A program made the translations under genes and the position numbers. This document shows, in pieces, positions 5,287 through 44,476 of a stretch of DNA of 64,000 nucleotides (position 1 is the stretch's first letter; each line of letters begins with the position of its first letter). Where the stretch lies: positions 1 through 64,000 of the forward strand of contig RHKP01000009.1 of NCBI GenBank assembly GCA_008363215.1, read 5' to 3'. Below the pieces are notes generated by a model. It made no database searches and was not told the DNA's origin. It saw only the letters and a program-made list of their open reading frames with translations. Source of the stretch: Cyanobacteria bacterium CYA. GTDB lineage: Bacteria; Planctomycetota; Phycisphaerae; Phycisphaerales; UBA1924.

Positions 5287-7314
5287 TCAAGGCAGTTCGC
5301 CCAGGGCGCGGAGCATTTCGTCGCGGACGAGCGTTCCGGCGGCCGCGGCGGTCGGCGCGTCGCGCAGGTGGTGCAGCGAGTCATCGAGCCAGTCCCACGA
5401 GAGGTCATAGACCTGACCGTCGAACTCGAAGGCGTCAAAGCCGTTGGCCAGCGCCCATGCGTGGAAGGCCTGGTTCACCGGTGCACCGGCGTGATCGTCG
5501 GTGGCGCCGTAGGTGCGGCCCATGAGGCCGAAGATCGAGATGTATGAGGCCCGGGTGTCGACGAGGCAGAGGTCGCGCGCCGCCCAGGCCATTTCGTCGG
5601 CGTTGCGCATCTCGCGATCCCGGTCGCCGTTGATGTGATGCGCGAAGGAAACGACGAAAAGCACCAGCGGCGGGCGCGTCGAGACGCCGTCGAACCAGGC
5701 CAGCGACTCTTCCATGTATTGATCGAGGAAGGCGCGGTGGCCCTCGCGTTCGTTCATCTGGTTGGCGAGCATCACCACTACGACGGGCTGCTGATCGGGC
5801 GAGACCGATCGCGCCAGCAGGTCCGTACGCATTTGCTCGCGCGTGAACTGCTTCTGCCCGTTGGACGGGCAGTTGCAGACCATCCCTTCGTGCTGCCAGG
5901 TGTTGGCGGCCTTCCAGACTTCGTGCGGGCCGGGCAGACGCTGCCCCAGGGCATCGACCTTCTGCACCACGCTGCCCGCGAATATGAGCGAGCGGAGCGA
6001 GGCGGTGCGTTCGGTCTCGACGACGATGCGGTTGCCGGTGAGAGGTGCGATGAAGGGCACCGGCGCCCCCAGCAGTCCCGGGGTCAGACCCGAGCAGTCG
6101 TATGTGACCCCGTTGATTCGTGCGCCGGGCTGCTGGAGCCCTGCGACCGAGCCGAGGAACAACGGCTTGATCTGCACGAGATCCCCGATGTCGATCCACG
6201 GCTCGATGAGCAGGCCGTTGTCAGCAGTGATGCGAATGGAGGGCGTCCAGCCGGTGGCCGCATCATCGATGAACTCCTCGAGACGGGAGGTGGGCACGGC
6301 GTAGTAGGCGCCGGAGCCCTCGTGCATTTCGAACAAGGTCGAAGCATCCACTGGGCGCGAGGTGGTCAGCGCCACCGAGCGCACCAGCCGGGCCGGGTGA
6401 TTCGACAGCCCGTTGGAGTAGGACGTGGGCGTGTACGACGAAACGGACTTGAAGCCATACCACAGCCGGGCCGGAAGTTCCTCGGCGTGCGAATCACCGA
6501 GCACGACGACAAAGGGGTCGCCATGCAGCAGTTCCTGGGCCACCGGGCCCAGATTGCGCGAGGTCGGCGGCACGCAACCGTCGGAAAATAACTGGAGATA
6601 CACCAGCACATCGAAGAAGTCGAAGGTGCCGAAGGGCGTGGCGAAGTCGGAAATCGGATCCTGGTCGGAAAAGCCCTGGAGGAACATCTGCACGTCGAAG
6701 AAGTCGAGCACGCCGTCTTCGTTCAGGTCGGCCGGGCCGCACGGAATGGGGCGGATGTTGACGTTGACACCCTCGATCGTGCCGGTGACCGTGAGGTTCG
6801 GGATGGTGCCGCTGAAGACGGCCGTGTCGATTTCGGGGCTGCCTCCCGAAGGCAGGATCGCGATTTCCGCGGCCGGATCGACCGTCAGGGCATCGAAGAG
6901 AAGCGTCGTGACCAGTGTGCCGCCGGGAACCGCCACGCCCGAGACGCCGGGCTGAGCCCAGGCGATGTACAGCCCGTCTCCGTCCTGCGGCGGCTCGACC
7001 TCGTTGAGCCCGTTCGAGCCGGTCACCGGGAAACCTTCGATGATGAGGTCGACGTCGCCGTTGCCCAGCAACTGCACCAGTTGCACCGACGCGGTGTCCC
7101 ACGCAAGCACAACTTCCATCGCGCTGAAGGTCTGGTCGTCGACGGGATGATCGGAGACGGCGTAGAGGCCCACGACGAACTGATCGCCGACGTACACCAC
7201 GGGCGTTTCCACGCGCAGTTCGAGGTTGATGTCGGCCGCAGCGGCGCTTGCGATCGACGCTGCCACACTCACCGCCGTCCATTGCCAAGGTCTGCGCCAA
7301 CGCCTCATCGCCAT
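5287..7314 (-). CDS. Secreted modular protein: cohesin-like domain, dockerin-like loop, SGNH-type hydrolase region
   Basis: A 675-residue protein with a signal peptide (residues 3-27, ending ASAAAA). Residues about 29-190 form a beta-rich cohesin/CBM-like domain (MEVVLAWDTASVQLVQL; GLNEVEPPQDGDG). Residues 195-248 look like a dockerin: one canonical calcium loop (DLNEDGVLDFFD) and one degenerate partner (GTFDFFD). From 265 on, FVVVLGDSHAEE gives an SGNH/GDSL block-I motif (Ser275), MLANQMNE (515-522) may be block III, and D645-S-L-H648 fits block V. This suggests an esterase or acyl hydrolase, but the Gly/Asn oxyanion residues are not secure. The N-terminal domain is homologous to the whole 203-residue protein at 10432-11043. 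ATG 7314 chosen because a signal peptide follows directly. Confidence 0.8.
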   Translation of the reverse strand: MAMRRWRRPWQWTAVSVAASIASAAAADINLELRVETPVVYVGDQFVVGLYAVSDHPVDDQTFSAMEVVLAWDTASVQLVQLLGNGDVDLIIEGFPVTGSNGLNEVEPPQDGDGLYIAWAQPGVSGVAVPGGTLVTTLLFDALTVDPAAEIAILPSGGSPEIDTAVFSGTIPNLTVTGTIEGVNVNIRPIPCGPADLNEDGVLDFFDVQMFLQGFSDQDPISDFATPFGTFDFFDVLVYLQLFSDGCVPPTSRNLGPVAQELLHGDPFVVVLGDSHAEELPARLWYGFKSVSSYTPTSYSNGLSNHPARLVRSVALTTSRPVDASTLFEMHEGSGAYYAVPTSRLEEFIDDAATGWTPSIRITADNGLLIEPWIDIGDLVQIKPLFLGSVAGLQQPGARINGVTYDCSGLTPGLLGAPVPFIAPLTGNRIVVETERTASLRSLIFAGSVVQKVDALGQRLPGPHEVWKAANTWQHEGMVCNCPSNGQKQFTREQMRTDLLARSVSPDQQPVVVVMLANQMNEREGHRAFLDQYMEESLAWFDGVSTRPPLVLFVVSFAHHINGDRDREMRNADEMAWAARDLCLVDTRASYISIFGLMGRTYGATDDHAGAPVNQAFHAWALANGFDAFEFDGQVYDLSWDWLDDSLHHLRDAPTAAAAGTLVRDEMLRALGELP

Positions 7315-7424
7315 ACACCCCTGTCTGACCGGGCCCGATGCGCCCGAACGTGGTTGAAACCGAAAATGTAAACGGGGGAAGAGGCGTTGGCCCCTTCCTC
7401 CCGAGAGGAGGCTCAACGGCGGCC

Positions 7425-10319
7425 TCAGTTGCCGAACGTCATGCCGACGCGGTTGACGATGAACTGGAGATCCTCGATGGTGATCCAGCCGTCGCCGTTC
7501 ATGTCATACGGCAGGCCCATGCGCTCGTTCATGTGAGCGGTGACCAACTGAACGTCGAAGAAGTCGACGCGCCCGCTGTTGTCCACGTCGGCCAGGTGAT
7601 CGGGGCGGGCCCCCATCGCAAACTCGGCCACGTCGGCGGTGTCGAGCATTCCGTCAGCGTTGAGGTCGGCGGCGATCAGATCTTCCAGCCCGAGGCGGCG
7701 AAGTTCGTCGACCGAAATGCTGGTGACGGGGCGGGCCATCGGCTCGCCGGCATCGGCCAAGCGCAATCCGCCGAACGATGGCAACGGACCAGTGCACAAG
7801 GCCTCGTTGAACTGAAGGAAGTTGATCTGGATGAAGGTGAAGTCGCCGGTGGTGACCTGTCCATCGCCGGTGATGTCGGCGTGCGGGCCGACGGTGCCGC
7901 AGGGGGTGTCGGCGCCGATCGACTGTCCGAACTGTCCGACGAGCGTGCCGAAGTCGAGGATGTCGATGTAGGTGTCGGCGTTGAGGTTGCCGCCGATCAG
8001 GACGTCGCCGCCGGTGAACTCGGAGACGTAGTACGTGCCTGAGACGCCGAAGTCATCCGAATCGGTGGAGCGCAGGGTGTGCAGCCCGTCGCGCGCCGTG
8101 ATGCAGGTGTAGTCGCCGCAGGGAACGAGGATGGAGTCGATGGCGATGCCGCCGTTGAACGTCATGGTCGCGTTGACCGTGACGACGGGCCCGCTCACAG
8201 GCGTCAGTTCAAAGGTGATGCAACGGTCGAACGGGCCGGCGTCGACGACGCCCTGGAGTTCGACGGTCACGTCAAGCCAACTGTCGCCCTCCACATCGAC
8301 GTATTGCGTCGCGCTGGTCGTGTTGCCGCAGGCGTCGGTGGCCGACCAGGTCACCGGCGTGGTGCCGACCGGGAACGGATCGCTCATGCTCAGCCCGTCC
8401 GGGCGTTCGAAGGTGACAAGCACCTCCGAGCAGGTGTCGGTGGCGATGGCGCCCTGCGGCCCGACGATGATGTCGTCCCACAACGCGTCGTAGTCCTCGC
8501 CGAAGTTGTAAGCCTGCATGATGATGTTGCCGGCCCGCACGCTGCCGAAGGTCAGGATGTCCGTGTAGGTCAGGACGACCGTGCCGGTGTCATCGATGAG
8601 GCGGGCGATGTAGGCCCCGCTGGTCATCTCAACCTCCAGAGTCCACCACCGGTTGTAGGAGAAGCCCGAGGGCAGTCCGAGATCCACCCAGTCGGCCGTG
8701 TAACCGTTCGAGGGATCCTGGTCCGTGTCCTGCGAGAACCATCGGAAGCGCGGCGACGGGCTGACGGGGTCGGGGTTCGTCGGGTCGGCCGGATCGTTGC
8801 AGACGAAACCGAAGATCGGGTAGCCCGAAATGACGTTCTGGCTGTCGAACGTGGTCGCCCAGATGTCCGAGCGGCGCGCGTCGGTTCCCCAGTCGCTCGG
8901 GATGTACAACTTGCCTGACCACTTGGCGCCAACAGGCAGATCCACGTCGTACTTGCGCCCCTGGGTGTTGTAGAAGGCGCTGCTGTACCCGCCGGGGCGA
9001 TTGCTCTGCGAGTCGGCATCGTCGATGCCGATGCGCAGACGCCCGCTGAGACTTTCAAATGCCGCCGGCGGATATCGATCTGTGTACCAGCACCCGGGTG
9101 ATTGGGTGGCCGACGTGCAGATCGCAGACTCGAAGTTTTCCACGCTGTCGATGATCGCCGAGCAGTAGCCCGCGTCGGCATACAGGTTCAGATCGGGCGG
9201 CGGGGTGACGACCGGCGCGACGCTGTCACGCGTCACCTTGTGCAGATTGACCAGATTGGGCTGGATATCGGCGCCGTTGTCATCGGTCAGGCGCGTCGGG
9301 AGGGCGCCGGTGCGGAACGTCACCAGATCATCCACGGCGCAGAAGTCGCCCAGCACGTCGAACGTCAGGCGCGCCATGGTCGTCTCGGTGTCGGTTCCCA
9401 CGCCGGAGAGGTCGCCGGTCGAGTACGTGATCTCGCCCGCGCCCTCATCGACCAACTCGAACACCTCGGTGGTGAACGGCGCGTCGCCGGCGTCGGCCGA
9501 CACGAAGTCCAGCCTGGTCTTGTCGTAGGACAGGAAGAACTGACCCCCGACGATGACGTCCTGAGCGTTGGCCAGGTTGATCTCGACCACCACCTGCGTG
9601 TCGCCCCCGTCCAGACAGGCGTTCTGCGCGTCGAGCGTCAGCGACGCGACGACGGCGTCGATCACGCGAACATGCTGAGATACGGCGACAGTGCTGCCGG
9701 CCTTGGGCCCGCCGACAGGAACAGCCGCGAACTTCAGTTCGTAGTCGCCCACCGGCAGGACGGAGCCGTTGAGGAAGCCGAAGTCGGCCCGCCACGACTG
9801 GCTGAAAACGTAGTCGATGTCATCGGTGGACCAGGCGCCTCCGCCGGGGTTGACGAAGTAGCCGTCGTTCTCGTCCCAACTGTTATTCGGGTCGGCGTCG
9901 GCGTCGAAGAACGGATTTGAAACGACCTTGAAGTTGGTGCCCGCAGTCGGGTCGACGTCCACGAACAGGGTGAGCAGGTAGTTCTGCCCGTTGACGACGT
10001 CGGCCAGTTCGGGAGTGAACTGGAAGTCGAAGGACCACCACGAGGCTGTCGCATGTCCCGGAGCCAGACCGCTGAGCACCGTGGCGGTGTTTGCGTTCAG
10101 AGCCAGGGGGTCTCCGCCGGCGCGGGCGCGGGCCTTCATGTAGACAGACACGTCGGCCGTATGGGCCTGAAAGTCATTGCCGGGAATACCGGAGCCGGCG
10201 ATGAAGTCCCCATTTGCCTTGGTGGGGTCGACGGTGACCTGGGTGAAGGCCTGCCCGGCGCAGGCGGCCAGTGCGGCAACACAAATGCCGCGAACCAGAC
10301 GCATCTTCTTTCCCTGCAT
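7425..10319 (-). CDS. Large secreted multidomain protein: cohesin-like, split HYR domain with lectin-like insert, multiple dockerin-like calcium loops
   Basis: A 964-residue protein with a signal peptide (residues 1-26); gggagga lies just upstream of the ATG. Residues 30-220 are an uncharacterised beta domain. Residues 222-365 are cohesin-like (TQVVVEINLANAQDVIVGGQ; FFLSYDKTRLDFVSADAG). A HYR-type domain begins at 368-388 (APVVTPPPDLNLYADAGYCS) and resumes at 627-677 (TDTCSEVLVTFERP; FPVGTTPVTWSATDACGNTT). The intervening ~240 residues resemble a concanavalin/LamG-like sandwich (WTLEVEMTSGAYIARLIDDT; ALWDDIIVG). Residues 777-840 hold two dockerin-like loops (NLNADTYIDILDF, DITGDGQVTTGDF), and 885-951 hold three more. 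No catalytic site is seen; it is probably a binding or scaffold protein at the surface. It is 110 nt upstream of the SGNH-type gene on the same strand. Confidence 0.82.
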   Translation of the reverse strand: MQGKKMRLVRGICVAALAACAGQAFTQVTVDPTKANGDFIAGSGIPGNDFQAHTADVSVYMKARARAGGDPLALNANTATVLSGLAPGHATASWWSFDFQFTPELADVVNGQNYLLTLFVDVDPTAGTNFKVVSNPFFDADADPNNSWDENDGYFVNPGGGAWSTDDIDYVFSQSWRADFGFLNGSVLPVGDYELKFAAVPVGGPKAGSTVAVSQHVRVIDAVVASLTLDAQNACLDGGDTQVVVEINLANAQDVIVGGQFFLSYDKTRLDFVSADAGDAPFTTEVFELVDEGAGEITYSTGDLSGVGTDTETTMARLTFDVLGDFCAVDDLVTFRTGALPTRLTDDNGADIQPNLVNLHKVTRDSVAPVVTPPPDLNLYADAGYCSAIIDSVENFESAICTSATQSPGCWYTDRYPPAAFESLSGRLRIGIDDADSQSNRPGGYSSAFYNTQGRKYDVDLPVGAKWSGKLYIPSDWGTDARRSDIWATTFDSQNVISGYPIFGFVCNDPADPTNPDPVSPSPRFRWFSQDTDQDPSNGYTADWVDLGLPSGFSYNRWWTLEVEMTSGAYIARLIDDTGTVVLTYTDILTFGSVRAGNIIMQAYNFGEDYDALWDDIIVGPQGAIATDTCSEVLVTFERPDGLSMSDPFPVGTTPVTWSATDACGNTTSATQYVDVEGDSWLDVTVELQGVVDAGPFDRCITFELTPVSGPVVTVNATMTFNGGIAIDSILVPCGDYTCITARDGLHTLRSTDSDDFGVSGTYYVSEFTGGDVLIGGNLNADTYIDILDFGTLVGQFGQSIGADTPCGTVGPHADITGDGQVTTGDFTFIQINFLQFNEALCTGPLPSFGGLRLADAGEPMARPVTSISVDELRRLGLEDLIAADLNADGMLDTADVAEFAMGARPDHLADVDNSGRVDFFDVQLVTAHMNERMGLPYDMNGDGWITIEDLQFIVNRVGMTFGN

Positions 10320-10431
10320 GTGATCCTCCCAAACCGAGATGGTTTGACCGCCTGCCGAGTCGGAAACTCGGAGAACGGCACGACGAAATGGCCTTGCGCG
10401 TCCCCACGCCTGTCGCAAGGACGCTCGATTC

Positions 10432-11043
10432 CTACATCCGCCTTCGGGGCCTGCCCATCCGCATCAACCCCGGAAGCAAGAGACACCATCCCGCGCCCGG
10501 CGCGGGCACAATGCGAATCGAAGTCCCGATCAGCGCACCGGTCGCATCGGCGTTGGGCACTGCGCCATCAAACACGCTCGTATGCACCATCGGATTGCCC
10601 GCACGGGCGAGCATGCACACCGAGGCCGCCGCGGCGGGCGACCAGGCATGAAACACAAACGTCGTCAGCCGCACGCCTTCGGTGGCGTCGATCGGCGCCC
10701 CCAGCATGGCCAGCGCCCGGTACATGCCGTCACCATCACCGGGCGGCGAAGTCTCGTTCAGCCCGCCGGAGTTGACGCTGGGAAACCCGGAAGTAAGGAA
10801 AGGCGCACCGCCGGCGTGGTCCAGCCCGAGCAGATGCAGGCGGGGCTGGTCCCAGGCAAATACAAGTTCGACCGCCGAGATGGTCTGCCCATATCCCTGC
10901 CCGTTCCACGTAGCAAACAGCCCGACGCGTGCGATCTGGCCCACGCTGACGACTTCGCTTTCGGGGCGAAACTCGAGGGTGACTTCCGCGCGCGAGGTCT
11001 GCCCACCGATCACAGCGGCCAGAATCAGGCAAAGGGTGCGCAT
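10432..11043 (-). CDS. Secreted cohesin-like domain protein with PEP-CTERM-like C-terminal anchor
   Basis: A 203-residue protein. The signal peptide is MRTLCLILAAVIGGQTSRA; gaggagag lies about 8 nt before the ATG. The body (residues 20-180) is a single beta-rich domain matching the N-terminal domain of the 675-residue protein at 5287-7314 (SAVELVFAWDQPRLHLLGL; GLNETSPPGDGDG; TSVFDGAVPNADATG). The C-terminus reads VPAPGAGWCLLLPGLMRMGR then RRR: a proline motif, a short hydrophobic stretch and a basic tail, the architecture of PEP-CTERM/exosortase sorting signals with PAP in place of PEP. If processed, the protein would be displayed on the envelope. An upstream AT-rich patch with promoter-like sequences lies at 11251-11337. 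No exosortase gene is in the window. Confidence 0.78.
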   Translation of the reverse strand: MRTLCLILAAVIGGQTSRAEVTLEFRPESEVVSVGQIARVGLFATWNGQGYGQTISAVELVFAWDQPRLHLLGLDHAGGAPFLTSGFPSVNSGGLNETSPPGDGDGMYRALAMLGAPIDATEGVRLTTFVFHAWSPAAAASVCMLARAGNPMVHTSVFDGAVPNADATGALIGTSIRIVPAPGAGWCLLLPGLMRMGRPRRRM

Positions 11044-22583: not shown

Positions 22584-25809
<3,226 letters not shown>

Positions 25810-40839: not shown

Positions 40840-42186
40840 ATGCGTTTTCCGTCCGGTGCGGTCATTCTGTCGACCGCGATGCTGTCGCTCGGCGCTGAAG
40901 GACAATGCGAGTACAGCGCCAAGCGTTCGATGGGTCCGAACGTGTTGATCGCCCAGCAGGGAATCCCCTTGTCGGATGACCTTCCGATGTACGGACTGCT
41001 GCGTACCGACGCGTTTCTGATCGGCGGGAGTGTGTACTGCGCGGGCACCCCCGATCACGTGGCCTACTCGCTGGAAGACTTCCTGACGCGCACCGACGAG
41101 CAGTTGGCCCAGGCGATGGACAACTTCATCGAGACGCGCTTCCCCAACGACTTTCAGGTCGCCTACGACCCCGAGAGGGAGGAGTATTACAGTTACGTGC
41201 CCGAACACGCATTTCGCGGCATGATCATCATGGACATCGAGGGCAACGGGCTCGTCGCCCACCCGGACAACCTGCTGGACCACTACCGCTACAGTTCCAT
41301 CCTGGGCATGACCGGGCATGAACTGGTGGACGCGATCATGGCCCAGTACGGCAAGTGCGCCGACTTCACCCGGCGCGGCTTCCCGGAATCGCGGATCGGT
41401 CTGTTCGGAGTCATCCGCGGAAGGCGCAACGGCAACTCGTCGGAAGAACTCGTCCGCAAGGTCGAGTTCTTCAAACTCAAGGCCGCAGACCCGCGCAACT
41501 GGTTGCGCAACGTCGACTACCTCTGCCCGGTGGTGTTCAGCGGATGGTCGCCGACGGACGAAGTGCAGTCGTGCTCGGGCAGCAATCCCATCCGCAGTTG
41601 TTCGGCTCGGTATCTGGGCATGATCGACGTGACCGTCCGCGCCCTGACGCGCGGCCCGCTCGTCGAGCACGGCGACTGCGGAGGCTCACCATGGGAGCCC
41701 GATTCCGGGTGTGCCAACGTGGCCCCGGAACTGTGGACCTCGTACGAGCCGGTACGCGACGCGGCAGGCAACCGCTTCGGTATCTGCCCGCTTCTGTCCG
41801 TCAAGATTTTCAACCAGACTTCGTGCGATGATGACCGCTATTTGGTGGAGGAGGGCGTCGATCCGACGCTGGAAAACACACTGGGCGTGATCTCAGGCTA
41901 TCTGAACCGCCTGGTGTTCGAACGGCCTGCGTGCGTGGTCGACTGCTACGCGTACTGGATCGACCAGGAGATCGACCAGAACCAGTTGCGCCAAACCATG
42001 ACACGACTGGCGTACCCGATCCTCGGCGACTACAACGACGACCGACGGGTTGAGCATCAGGACAATCAGATCTTCACCAGTCACTGGATCGCCGGGCGAC
42101 CGGCGGCAGACATGAACGGCGACGGCGCCATCGACGCTCAAGACCGCTGCGTCATGAATGAATTGCTCGGCATCAACTGCCCGTGA
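40840..42186 (+). CDS. Secreted protein with C-terminal dockerin-like repeats, function unknown
   Basis: A 448-residue protein with a signal peptide (residues 1-22, LSTAMLSLGAEGQ). The large middle part (about 25-390) has no family I recognise; a strand-like series (GMIIMDIEGNGLV, SRIGLFGVIRG, VDYLCPVVFSGW) could be a TIM-barrel-like fold, unproven. Seven or more Cys residues suggest disulfides. The C-terminal ~55 residues hold a dockerin-type pair: DYNDDRRVEHQDNQ and DMNGDGAIDAQDRC. gaaggagatcc sits before the ATG, and tatatt (40770-40775) is a possible -10. It is followed by a strong terminator at 42265. A possible partner for cohesin-like domains elsewhere in the window, by inference only. 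Confidence 0.75.
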   Translation: MRFPSGAVILSTAMLSLGAEGQCEYSAKRSMGPNVLIAQQGIPLSDDLPMYGLLRTDAFLIGGSVYCAGTPDHVAYSLEDFLTRTDEQLAQAMDNFIETRFPNDFQVAYDPEREEYYSYVPEHAFRGMIIMDIEGNGLVAHPDNLLDHYRYSSILGMTGHELVDAIMAQYGKCADFTRRGFPESRIGLFGVIRGRRNGNSSEELVRKVEFFKLKAADPRNWLRNVDYLCPVVFSGWSPTDEVQSCSGSNPIRSCSARYLGMIDVTVRALTRGPLVEHGDCGGSPWEPDSGCANVAPELWTSYEPVRDAAGNRFGICPLLSVKIFNQTSCDDDRYLVEEGVDPTLENTLGVISGYLNRLVFERPACVVDCYAYWIDQEIDQNQLRQTMTRLAYPILGDYNDDRRVEHQDNQIFTSHWIAGRPAADMNGDGAIDAQDRCVMNELLGINCP

Positions 42187-42922: not shown

Positions 42923-44434
42923 TTACTCGCCTGCGCGCAGATCCGACGCATTGACCTGGAAGGTCCACGCATCCTTTGAGCCGCGGGCGAAAGCCTCATT
43001 CATCTCCAGCAGTGTCACGATGGACCAGCGCGTCTTGATTCCCGAGGGCGTCTTCACGTCGGCCTCCACGAGCAGCCACAGCGCACGCTCGTTGCGGGGC
43101 GCCTTCGAGTTCATGTAGTCGCCGTCGAGCGTGACCGACGCACCCGCGGCGGCGGCCATCGGCTCGGCGTCCTCGGCGACGCGCTGAACGCGGGCATCGC
43201 GCCCTCCGCCCGGCTTGGCCCGGTAGACGCGCACTCCCTCAACCGCCGCGCCGTCACCGGAGACGACCTGCAGAATCAGTTGCCGGGGCACCCACTGCCA
43301 CATGTGTCCGAAAGGCTGCTCGGGATTCTCGCACGCGCCGACGCGAGAGACGCCCTTCTTGCTGTTGACGATGGTCGCGCTGAGCCACGAGAGTTCCGGC
43401 GCGGTGTAGGGGTCGTTCATGATCTCGTGGAGGAGATAGGCGGTGCTGGGCGAAGAACCGAGTTTCCAGCCTTCGGGAGAGCGCCCGGGCAGGCTGCCGG
43501 CGGGGATGTTATAGATGTAGAAGTCGGGTACGCCGCGATAGTGGAAGATCTCGTGCCACAGGGCCTGTTCGCCCCAGTTGGACCAGATGCCCTGCTTTTC
43601 CGCTCCGCCGCGCGCGCTGAGAAAGTTGTGTCCGATCGAGTGGTAGTGCAGGCTGTCGCCGTCCTCAAGCCAGAAGCAGCACAGCGGGCCGCCCTCGTTG
43701 ACCGCGATGACCAGGTCGAACTCGGGATGCTCGGCGAACAGGGCCGGCGTACCCGCGTCGGGGTCGAAGGTCTCGACATGCTCGATGCGGAAGCGGTCGG
43801 TGATGACCGGGCGCGACTCGTCTCCCATCGGAATGCCGGGCACTTCCTGCACATCGTAGAGAGACTCGAGATCCTCCAGACTCTTGCGGAAGCGCCGCAC
43901 CATCGAGCCGAAGCGCGTGTCGCCGTCTTTCCATGAATCCTCGGTGGCGACCAGCGCGATGCGATGGGCGTCGGGCCCGTGCATGGGGAACTGATCGTAA
44001 ATCTCCGGCGTGTCGGCCGGCGAATCGACTGCCGCTGACAGCGTGAGCGACTTGCCGTAGGGAATATCGACGGTCTTCATCGCCACCGTCACGGTCTGGC
44101 GCTGCCCCGGCGTCATGGATGCGACGGGCAGGCCTTCGGGCAGGTCCGGCAGCCCGAGGATCAGCATCACGCCTGTGTCCTTGTCGCCCGCGTTGCGCAG
44201 CACGATCTCAAGGCCGGCCTCATCCGATTCCGGCGCGCGGGGCTTGTCGCCCAGTTTGCGCACCTCCGCACGCGGCGTGATGCCGACCCACTCGATCACC
44301 GGCCCGTTCCACCGGACATTTCTGGGGTTGGAGGAGTCTCGGTCCGAGGCCTCGACCGGGACGGGCGGGGCTCCGAAGGCGGTGGCGATCAGGCCGATAA
44401 ACAGCGATACGACGATCGCGATGTGGGTACTCAT
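42923..44434 (-). CDS. Secreted protein with HEIFH zinc-peptidase-like motif
   Basis: A 503-residue protein with a signal peptide (MSTHIAIVVSLFIGLIATAFGA). Residues about 40-130 look like an Ig-like beta domain. The middle contains ALWHEIFHYRGVPDFYIYN, an HExxH motif at 294-298, preceded by YHSIGHNFLSA. The C-terminal 110 residues are beta-rich and include a carboxypeptidase-regulatory-like segment (QVVSGDGAAVEGVRVYRAK). The usual third zinc ligand is not obvious, so family and activity are uncertain. The gene stands apart, 42 nt downstream of the next minus-strand gene. Confidence 0.65.
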   Translation of the reverse strand: MSTHIAIVVSLFIGLIATAFGAPPVPVEASDRDSSNPRNVRWNGPVIEWVGITPRAEVRKLGDKPRAPESDEAGLEIVLRNAGDKDTGVMLILGLPDLPEGLPVASMTPGQRQTVTVAMKTVDIPYGKSLTLSAAVDSPADTPEIYDQFPMHGPDAHRIALVATEDSWKDGDTRFGSMVRRFRKSLEDLESLYDVQEVPGIPMGDESRPVITDRFRIEHVETFDPDAGTPALFAEHPEFDLVIAVNEGGPLCCFWLEDGDSLHYHSIGHNFLSARGGAEKQGIWSNWGEQALWHEIFHYRGVPDFYIYNIPAGSLPGRSPEGWKLGSSPSTAYLLHEIMNDPYTAPELSWLSATIVNSKKGVSRVGACENPEQPFGHMWQWVPRQLILQVVSGDGAAVEGVRVYRAKPGGGRDARVQRVAEDAEPMAAAAGASVTLDGDYMNSKAPRNERALWLLVEADVKTPSGIKTRWSIVTLLEMNEAFARGSKDAWTFQVNASDLRAGE

Positions 44435-44476
44435 GTGAGAGTCTAGGACTCGGGCGGCGCCCGCCACGGGCACACT

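Follow-up and report, generated by a model that had tools for sequence, protein, structure and literature searches.

A scaffold and a small cohesin-fold protein conserved together in Phycisphaerae: a candidate cell-surface complex

Our analysis reveals a conserved gene module of the Phycisphaerae whose products most likely assemble on the cell surface through cohesin–dockerin contacts between inferred partners, a reading to which we assign a probability of roughly 45%. The conserved core of the module, found across uncultured planctomycetes of this large class, is a scaffold together with a small cohesin-fold protein; the full trio of genes in which we encountered it is a genus-level arrangement. 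The trio lies in a 64,000-nucleotide stretch of DNA (the window), where P0003, P0002, and P0001 follow one another on the minus strand, separated by spacers of 112 and 110 bp (Table 1). An earlier, sequence-only reading had proposed three minus-strand genes of these lengths at 5287-11043, and translation reproduced both. The upstream neighbour of the trio is a class I glutamine amidotransferase-like gene and the downstream neighbour is a convergent methylenetetrahydrofolate reductase-like gene (both identified by inspection), and shuffled sequence contains promoter-like and terminator-like sites at least as often as the trio does. Elsewhere in the window, the large frames sampled between positions 22584 and 62751 are mostly housekeeping genes (DNA gyrase B, SRP54, asparagine synthase, penicillin-binding protein, flotillin, and oligopeptide transporter); for two further frames Pfam gives nothing at E up to 1e-5, namely a 448-residue protein at 40840-42186 (plus strand) with a stretch towards its C-terminus that weakly resembles a dockerin, and a 516-residue open reading frame at 42923-44473 (minus strand).

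Table 1. Features of the three-gene locus in the window
Feature	Position in window	Strand	Description	Basis
P0003	10435-11043	-	203 aa; signal peptide, cohesin-fold domain (residues ~19-182), PEP-CTERM-like tail VPAPGAGWCLLLPGLMRMGRPRRRM	Translation, predicted structure
P0002	7428-10319	-	964 aa; secreted, scaffold-like	Pfam, predicted structure, modules homologous in relatives
P0002, order of modules			N-domain, cohesin, HYR split by LamG-like domain, beta domain, two dockerin-type regions	
P0002 cohesin	9222-9650	-	Residues ~223/224-366	PF00963 and structure match
P0002 dockerin-type C-terminal region	7428-8000	-	Residues 774-964	PF00404; loops align with relatives
P0001	5290-7314	-	675 aa; signal peptide, cohesin-fold domain, internal GC-type dockerin, SGNH-like domain	
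P0001 GC-type dockerin	6574-6741	-	Residues 192-247	NF041540
P0001 SGNH-like domain	5290-6555	-	Residues 254-675	GDSH 273-276, DSLH 646-649

The predicted structures reveal a cohesin fold in both P0003 and P0002. Specifically, the model of P0003, built from an alignment of 36 family members, is a beta sandwich (pLDDT 88.5, pTM 0.82) whose top matches among solved structures are nearly all cohesins. The best match is the GH33 cohesin of C. perfringens (2vo8; Z 15.8, 2.2 Å over 135 residues), and the C. thermocellum cohesin of 1ohz matches with a Z of 13.4. The model of P0002 residues 223-366 likewise has cohesins as nearly all of its top matches; it matches 2vo8 best (Z 16.4) and cellulosomal cohesins with Z of about 14-16. 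By sequence, PF00963 scores 23.3 bits at residues 241-325 when P0002 is searched as a whole protein (cut-off 24.1) and 27 bits, above the cut-off, in the genome search, where it finds one cohesin in the whole genome. P0003 has no Pfam or NCBIfam match, and the N-terminal domain of P0001 has no library match, PF00963 included. The latter domain is a paralogue of P0003 (37-39% identity) and is predicted to have a cohesin fold through this homology. A sequence-only PDB search returned nothing useful for P0001, the small-cohesin profiles, or the SGNH-part profile. Modelling, with Z of about 16 for P0003 and P0002, and homology to P0003 in the case of P0001 thus bear out the cohesin-like domains claimed earlier and exclude, by prediction, that the locus has no cohesin fold.

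The small cohesins form a divergent group, as judged from their weak profile matches and from invariant residues of their own. In particular, PF00963 gives weak matches in 4 of 36 small-cohesin relatives (best E 0.05), the comparison of small-cohesin with PF00963-type cohesin profiles detects weak sequence similarity (E 2e-4 in one comparison, probability 44%), and the small-cohesin signature comprises invariant W64, N96, D103, G104, G123, and F131 (P0003 numbering). Pfam-based cohesin surveys consequently overlook an entire subfamily, the small P0003-like cohesins. The fold that these proteins share with cohesins does not in itself establish dockerin binding.

P0002 combines its cohesin with dockerin modules. 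Dockerin_1 (PF00404) scores 45.2 bits (cut-off 22.9), and five calcium-type loops, two at residues 774-842 and three at 866-964, align with those of relatives, so that the cohesin-like domain and five calcium loops originally read from this gene both hold. HYR scores under the Pfam cut-off in P0002 and above it in the relative from genome G012. In the predicted structure, residues 392-621 look like a jelly roll of the concanavalin type, as in GH43 enzymes (Z 12.6). This LamG-like domain (residues ~392/396-621; window 8457-9134) is inserted within HYR, and several relatives are without it or have another insertion there. P0002 and its relatives typically have one cohesin each, and a locus holds one to four copies of the scaffold (cohesin, HYR, beta domain, and dockerin loops), in tandem in some genomes.

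The scaffold and the small cohesin occur together well beyond the window. Of the 163 genomes of the GTDB family, 10 contain strong matches to the small-cohesin profile, 12 in all, and a P0002-like gene shares the locus with 12 of 12. In a sample of 397 genomes of the class, the small cohesin occurs in 64 and the scaffold core in 67; both are present in 60, the small protein alone in 4, the scaffold alone in 7, and neither in 326 (Fisher p about 5e-58, uncorrected for shared ancestry). At least 49 of the 90 matches examined lie no more than 5 kb from a listed scaffold match, all 49 on the same strand; this count is a lower bound, the remainder including short contigs and unlisted matches. A scan of named genomes yielded 44 scaffold loci, about 30 of which also have a small cohesin gene. 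Nearly all are from Phycisphaerae or other Planctomycetota, with one from Armatimonadota and one from Fimbriimonadales. The records from the latter two groups (L166, Fimbriimonadales; L178, Armatimonadota) contain scaffold-like genes, in L166 beside a small cohesin with a canonical PEP-CTERM tail, which suggests that the genes crossed between phyla or that contigs were wrongly binned.

This association bears on a rival reading, according to which the three products are ordinary secreted adhesion or matrix proteins made from shuffled modules and do not assemble together. Modules of the HYR, LamG, cohesin, and dockerin-like types turn up in many proteins, and scaffold N-domains differ from copy to copy. 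Moreover, the loci contain no recurring enzyme family that we could find, and the search for a recurring third gene family near them returned, besides antisense artefacts, nothing but kinases and signalling genes, none of them in more than 6 loci. These observations all suit such a reading, but random shuffling would not place scaffold and small cohesin together on one strand across the class, and we regard it as quite improbable.

The SGNH-like part of P0001 is the element of the trio that is not conserved. In the sister genome, G001, gene order and flanks of the trio are as in the window, and there the SGNH-like part is a truncated remnant, with a stop soon after GDSH and about 1 kb (window 6292-5273) missing. 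Relatives of the SGNH-like part were found in 4 of 298 genomes (G008, G101, G027, and G439); those in G008 and G101 each have their own C-terminal dockerin, and no dockerin was found in that of G027. An SGNH enzyme as a conserved third component was rejected on these counts. The proposal that the three genes are conserved together accordingly survives for scaffold and small cohesin across the class, and for the trio in the sister genome, but fails for the SGNH part. The SGNH identity of P0001 residues 254-675 is itself putative and based on motifs: the GDSH and DSLH motifs noted earlier are present, and five aligned relatives all share GDS and one C-terminal His, but conservation of the DxxH Asp is not strict and neither Pfam nor a PDB sequence-profile search gives a match. 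Most simply, an SGNH-type gene would have been fused, late, behind a cohesin–dockerin protein in this genus and would already be decaying in the sister lineage.

The C-terminus of the small cohesin proteins is of two kinds, a PEP-CTERM-like tail or a dockerin-type tail. P0003 belongs to the PEP kind. Its tail is a VPAP variant with a short hydrophobic stretch that matches no curated PEP-CTERM model; it aligns with the PEP-CTERM tails of relatives, and tails placed like it in the relatives L166 (20 bits) and L227 (17.4 bits) exceed the 16-bit cut-off of TIGR02595. The PEP-CTERM-like tail previously assigned to P0003 is therefore upheld in pattern and position and through its relatives, while P0003 itself passes no model. 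An exosortase is encoded in the genome (PF09721, 154 bits) and in 160 of 163 genomes of the GTDB family. The P0001 domain clusters, in the tree, with proteins ending in a GC-type dockerin, and in the GTDB family tree a single switch divides PEP from dockerin tails (support 90/93). Across the class, a 41-sequence tree implies 11 changes of tail, at least 4 of them forced by well-supported branches, with tail labels assigned by pattern and many branches weak. PEP-tailed and dockerin-tailed cohesin paralogues are adjacent in five loci (the window, G001, L143, L146, and L147). Loss of exosortase as the cause of the tail switch was ruled out, as the 160 exosortase-bearing genomes include dockerin-tailed ones. 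The repeated exchange of PEP-CTERM and dockerin on one carrier suggests that both tails may do similar jobs. It is compatible both with a complex and with dockerins that act as sorting tags, because direct anchoring and plugging into an anchored cohesin reach one surface.

The GC-type dockerins themselves are far more widespread than the locus. The single dockerin-like loop formerly noted in P0001 proved to be part of a GC-type dockerin that is complete, with both loops (NF041540, 38.4 bits; cut-off 29). NF041540 has 82 matches in the genome, 76 of them above the cut-off, and GC-type dockerins occur in 100 of 100 family genomes, usually in more than 50 copies (mostly at least 53 matches each), as against PF00963 cohesins in at least 12 of 100, a lower bound because Pfam misses the P0003 group. 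Since dockerins are universal and small cohesins are present in 10 of 163 family genomes, dockerin proteins do not depend on the locus. A role of the locus as general receptor for GC-type dockerins was rejected, most dockerin-bearing family genomes having neither PF00963 nor small cohesins, and the broader notion of these cohesins as partners for the dockerins of the organism loses support. In a home-made profile search of the genome, 69 of 78 distinct GC-type dockerins end 0-3 residues from the stop; that of P0001, which has the GC end in a position that is not C-terminal, is the sole one of the 78 with a further domain behind it (428 residues). Outside the window, on contig C19 of G000 (108887-130837), a dense secreted-protein cluster packs about eleven genes with GC-type dockerins into 22 kb.

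The extreme C-terminal position of GC-type dockerins, their abundance relative to PF00963 cohesins, and the swapping of PEP-CTERM and dockerin tails on small cohesins would all be expected if the dockerin-type tail were a C-terminal sorting or anchoring tag like PEP-CTERM, with the cohesin folds binding glycan, each other, or another surface protein. Against this stand the retention of exosortase in the same genomes, which would make a second tag redundant, the persistence of the dockerin in P0001 although it is internal, and the combination of cohesin and dockerin modules in the scaffold; the rarity of cohesins, moreover, is a lower bound, P0003-like cohesins being missed by Pfam. On balance we consider a sorting tag somewhat unlikely. 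A combined proposal, in which the Phycisphaerae dockerin would be a cohesin-independent sorting tag interchangeable with PEP-CTERM and the Pfam-unseen cohesins with their dedicated scaffold would form a separate surface assembly, is speculative, and we hold it to be unlikely.

In the complex that we favour, P0003 would be anchored in the envelope via its PEP-CTERM tail and exosortase and would act as receptor, and P0002 would be the adaptor, its dockerin end plugging into an anchored cohesin and its cohesin receiving a dockerin from the protein that follows in the chain. The LamG, HYR, and N-domains of P0002 may contact substrate or matrix. P0001 would be a dockerin-tailed cohesin protein, which in this genus may have gained an SGNH-type hydrolase as cargo, and tandem scaffold copies in relatives may lengthen or vary the chain. 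In favour of a complex are the predicted cohesin folds, the dockerins above curated cut-offs, the trio kept in G001, the pairing of scaffold and small cohesin on one strand, the presence of exosortase, and the adjacency of PEP-tailed and dockerin-tailed paralogues. Several observations count against it. With dockerins universal and recognisable cohesins rare in the family, most dockerins there have no recognisable cohesin partner. G012 keeps the scaffold/small-cohesin pair, yet has just 3 GC-type dockerins. The single cohesin per scaffold and the shortness of the P0003 tail, together with its failure to pass a curated model, weigh in the same direction. Of the anchored receptor, scaffold, and hydrolase initially proposed as a surface complex, the folds, the dockerins, and the conserved core thus lend support, whereas the SGNH part, which is not conserved, and the notion of a general dockerin receptor do not. 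Planctomycete genomes contain many dockerins; the locus provides small, defined cohesin-fold proteins, conserved with one scaffold, as candidate partners, which makes the question of what these dockerins bind directly testable.

The module can be compared with several known systems. It resembles the cellulosome, with its type I/II cohesin–dockerin scaffolds, in its cohesin fold and dockerin modules, and anchored, adaptor, and cargo roles are conceivable for it; it differs in that a scaffold usually has a single cohesin, that the locus encodes no cellulase, and that anchoring would be by PEP-CTERM and exosortase rather than by S-layer or sortase. A cellulosome proper was rejected, as we encountered no scaffoldin with several cohesins here and the whole genome has one PF00963 match. 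The noncellulosomal cohesins of C. perfringens glycoside hydrolases (2vo8, 2jh2, and 2w1n) are among the closest structures (Z about 15-16), but they are modules in secreted enzymes, whereas the cohesins here stand alone with a tail or are part of a scaffold, and identity is 8-16%. With PEP-CTERM/exosortase proteins, P0003 shares the position and pattern of the tail and the presence of exosortase, and it differs by the VPAP variant and the short hydrophobic stretch. P0001 residues 192-247 score above the cut-off of the NF041540 family and differ from it by their internal position.

The closest published counterpart is the planctosome, a surface complex proposed for freshwater Phycisphaerae (Nemodlikiaceae, that is, CL500-3), with a secreted adaptor comprising cohesin, HYR, and dockerin, a 2,210-residue lamin-tail anchor that has P-domains and a single cohesin, and peptidases as cargo (Andrei et al. 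2019, PMC6461901); three later papers use the term, among them one that cites the idea without further development (PMC8542988). P0002 has the module set of the adaptor, as compared with the published description rather than with adaptor sequences. A lamin-tail anchor with P-domains and a cohesin is absent at the locus, where the small proteins consist of cohesin and tail only; the putative anchored partner here is instead a small cohesin that ends in PEP-CTERM or dockerin, and in place of peptidases there is a single enzyme-like part, of SGNH type. In the literature searched, we found no paper combining dockerin, cohesin, and PEP-CTERM and no description of a module of scaffold and small cohesin. 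The module has a planctosome-like adaptor logic with a different anchored partner, is spread over many lineages of the class, and provides a second, differently built candidate beside the one published planctosome model.
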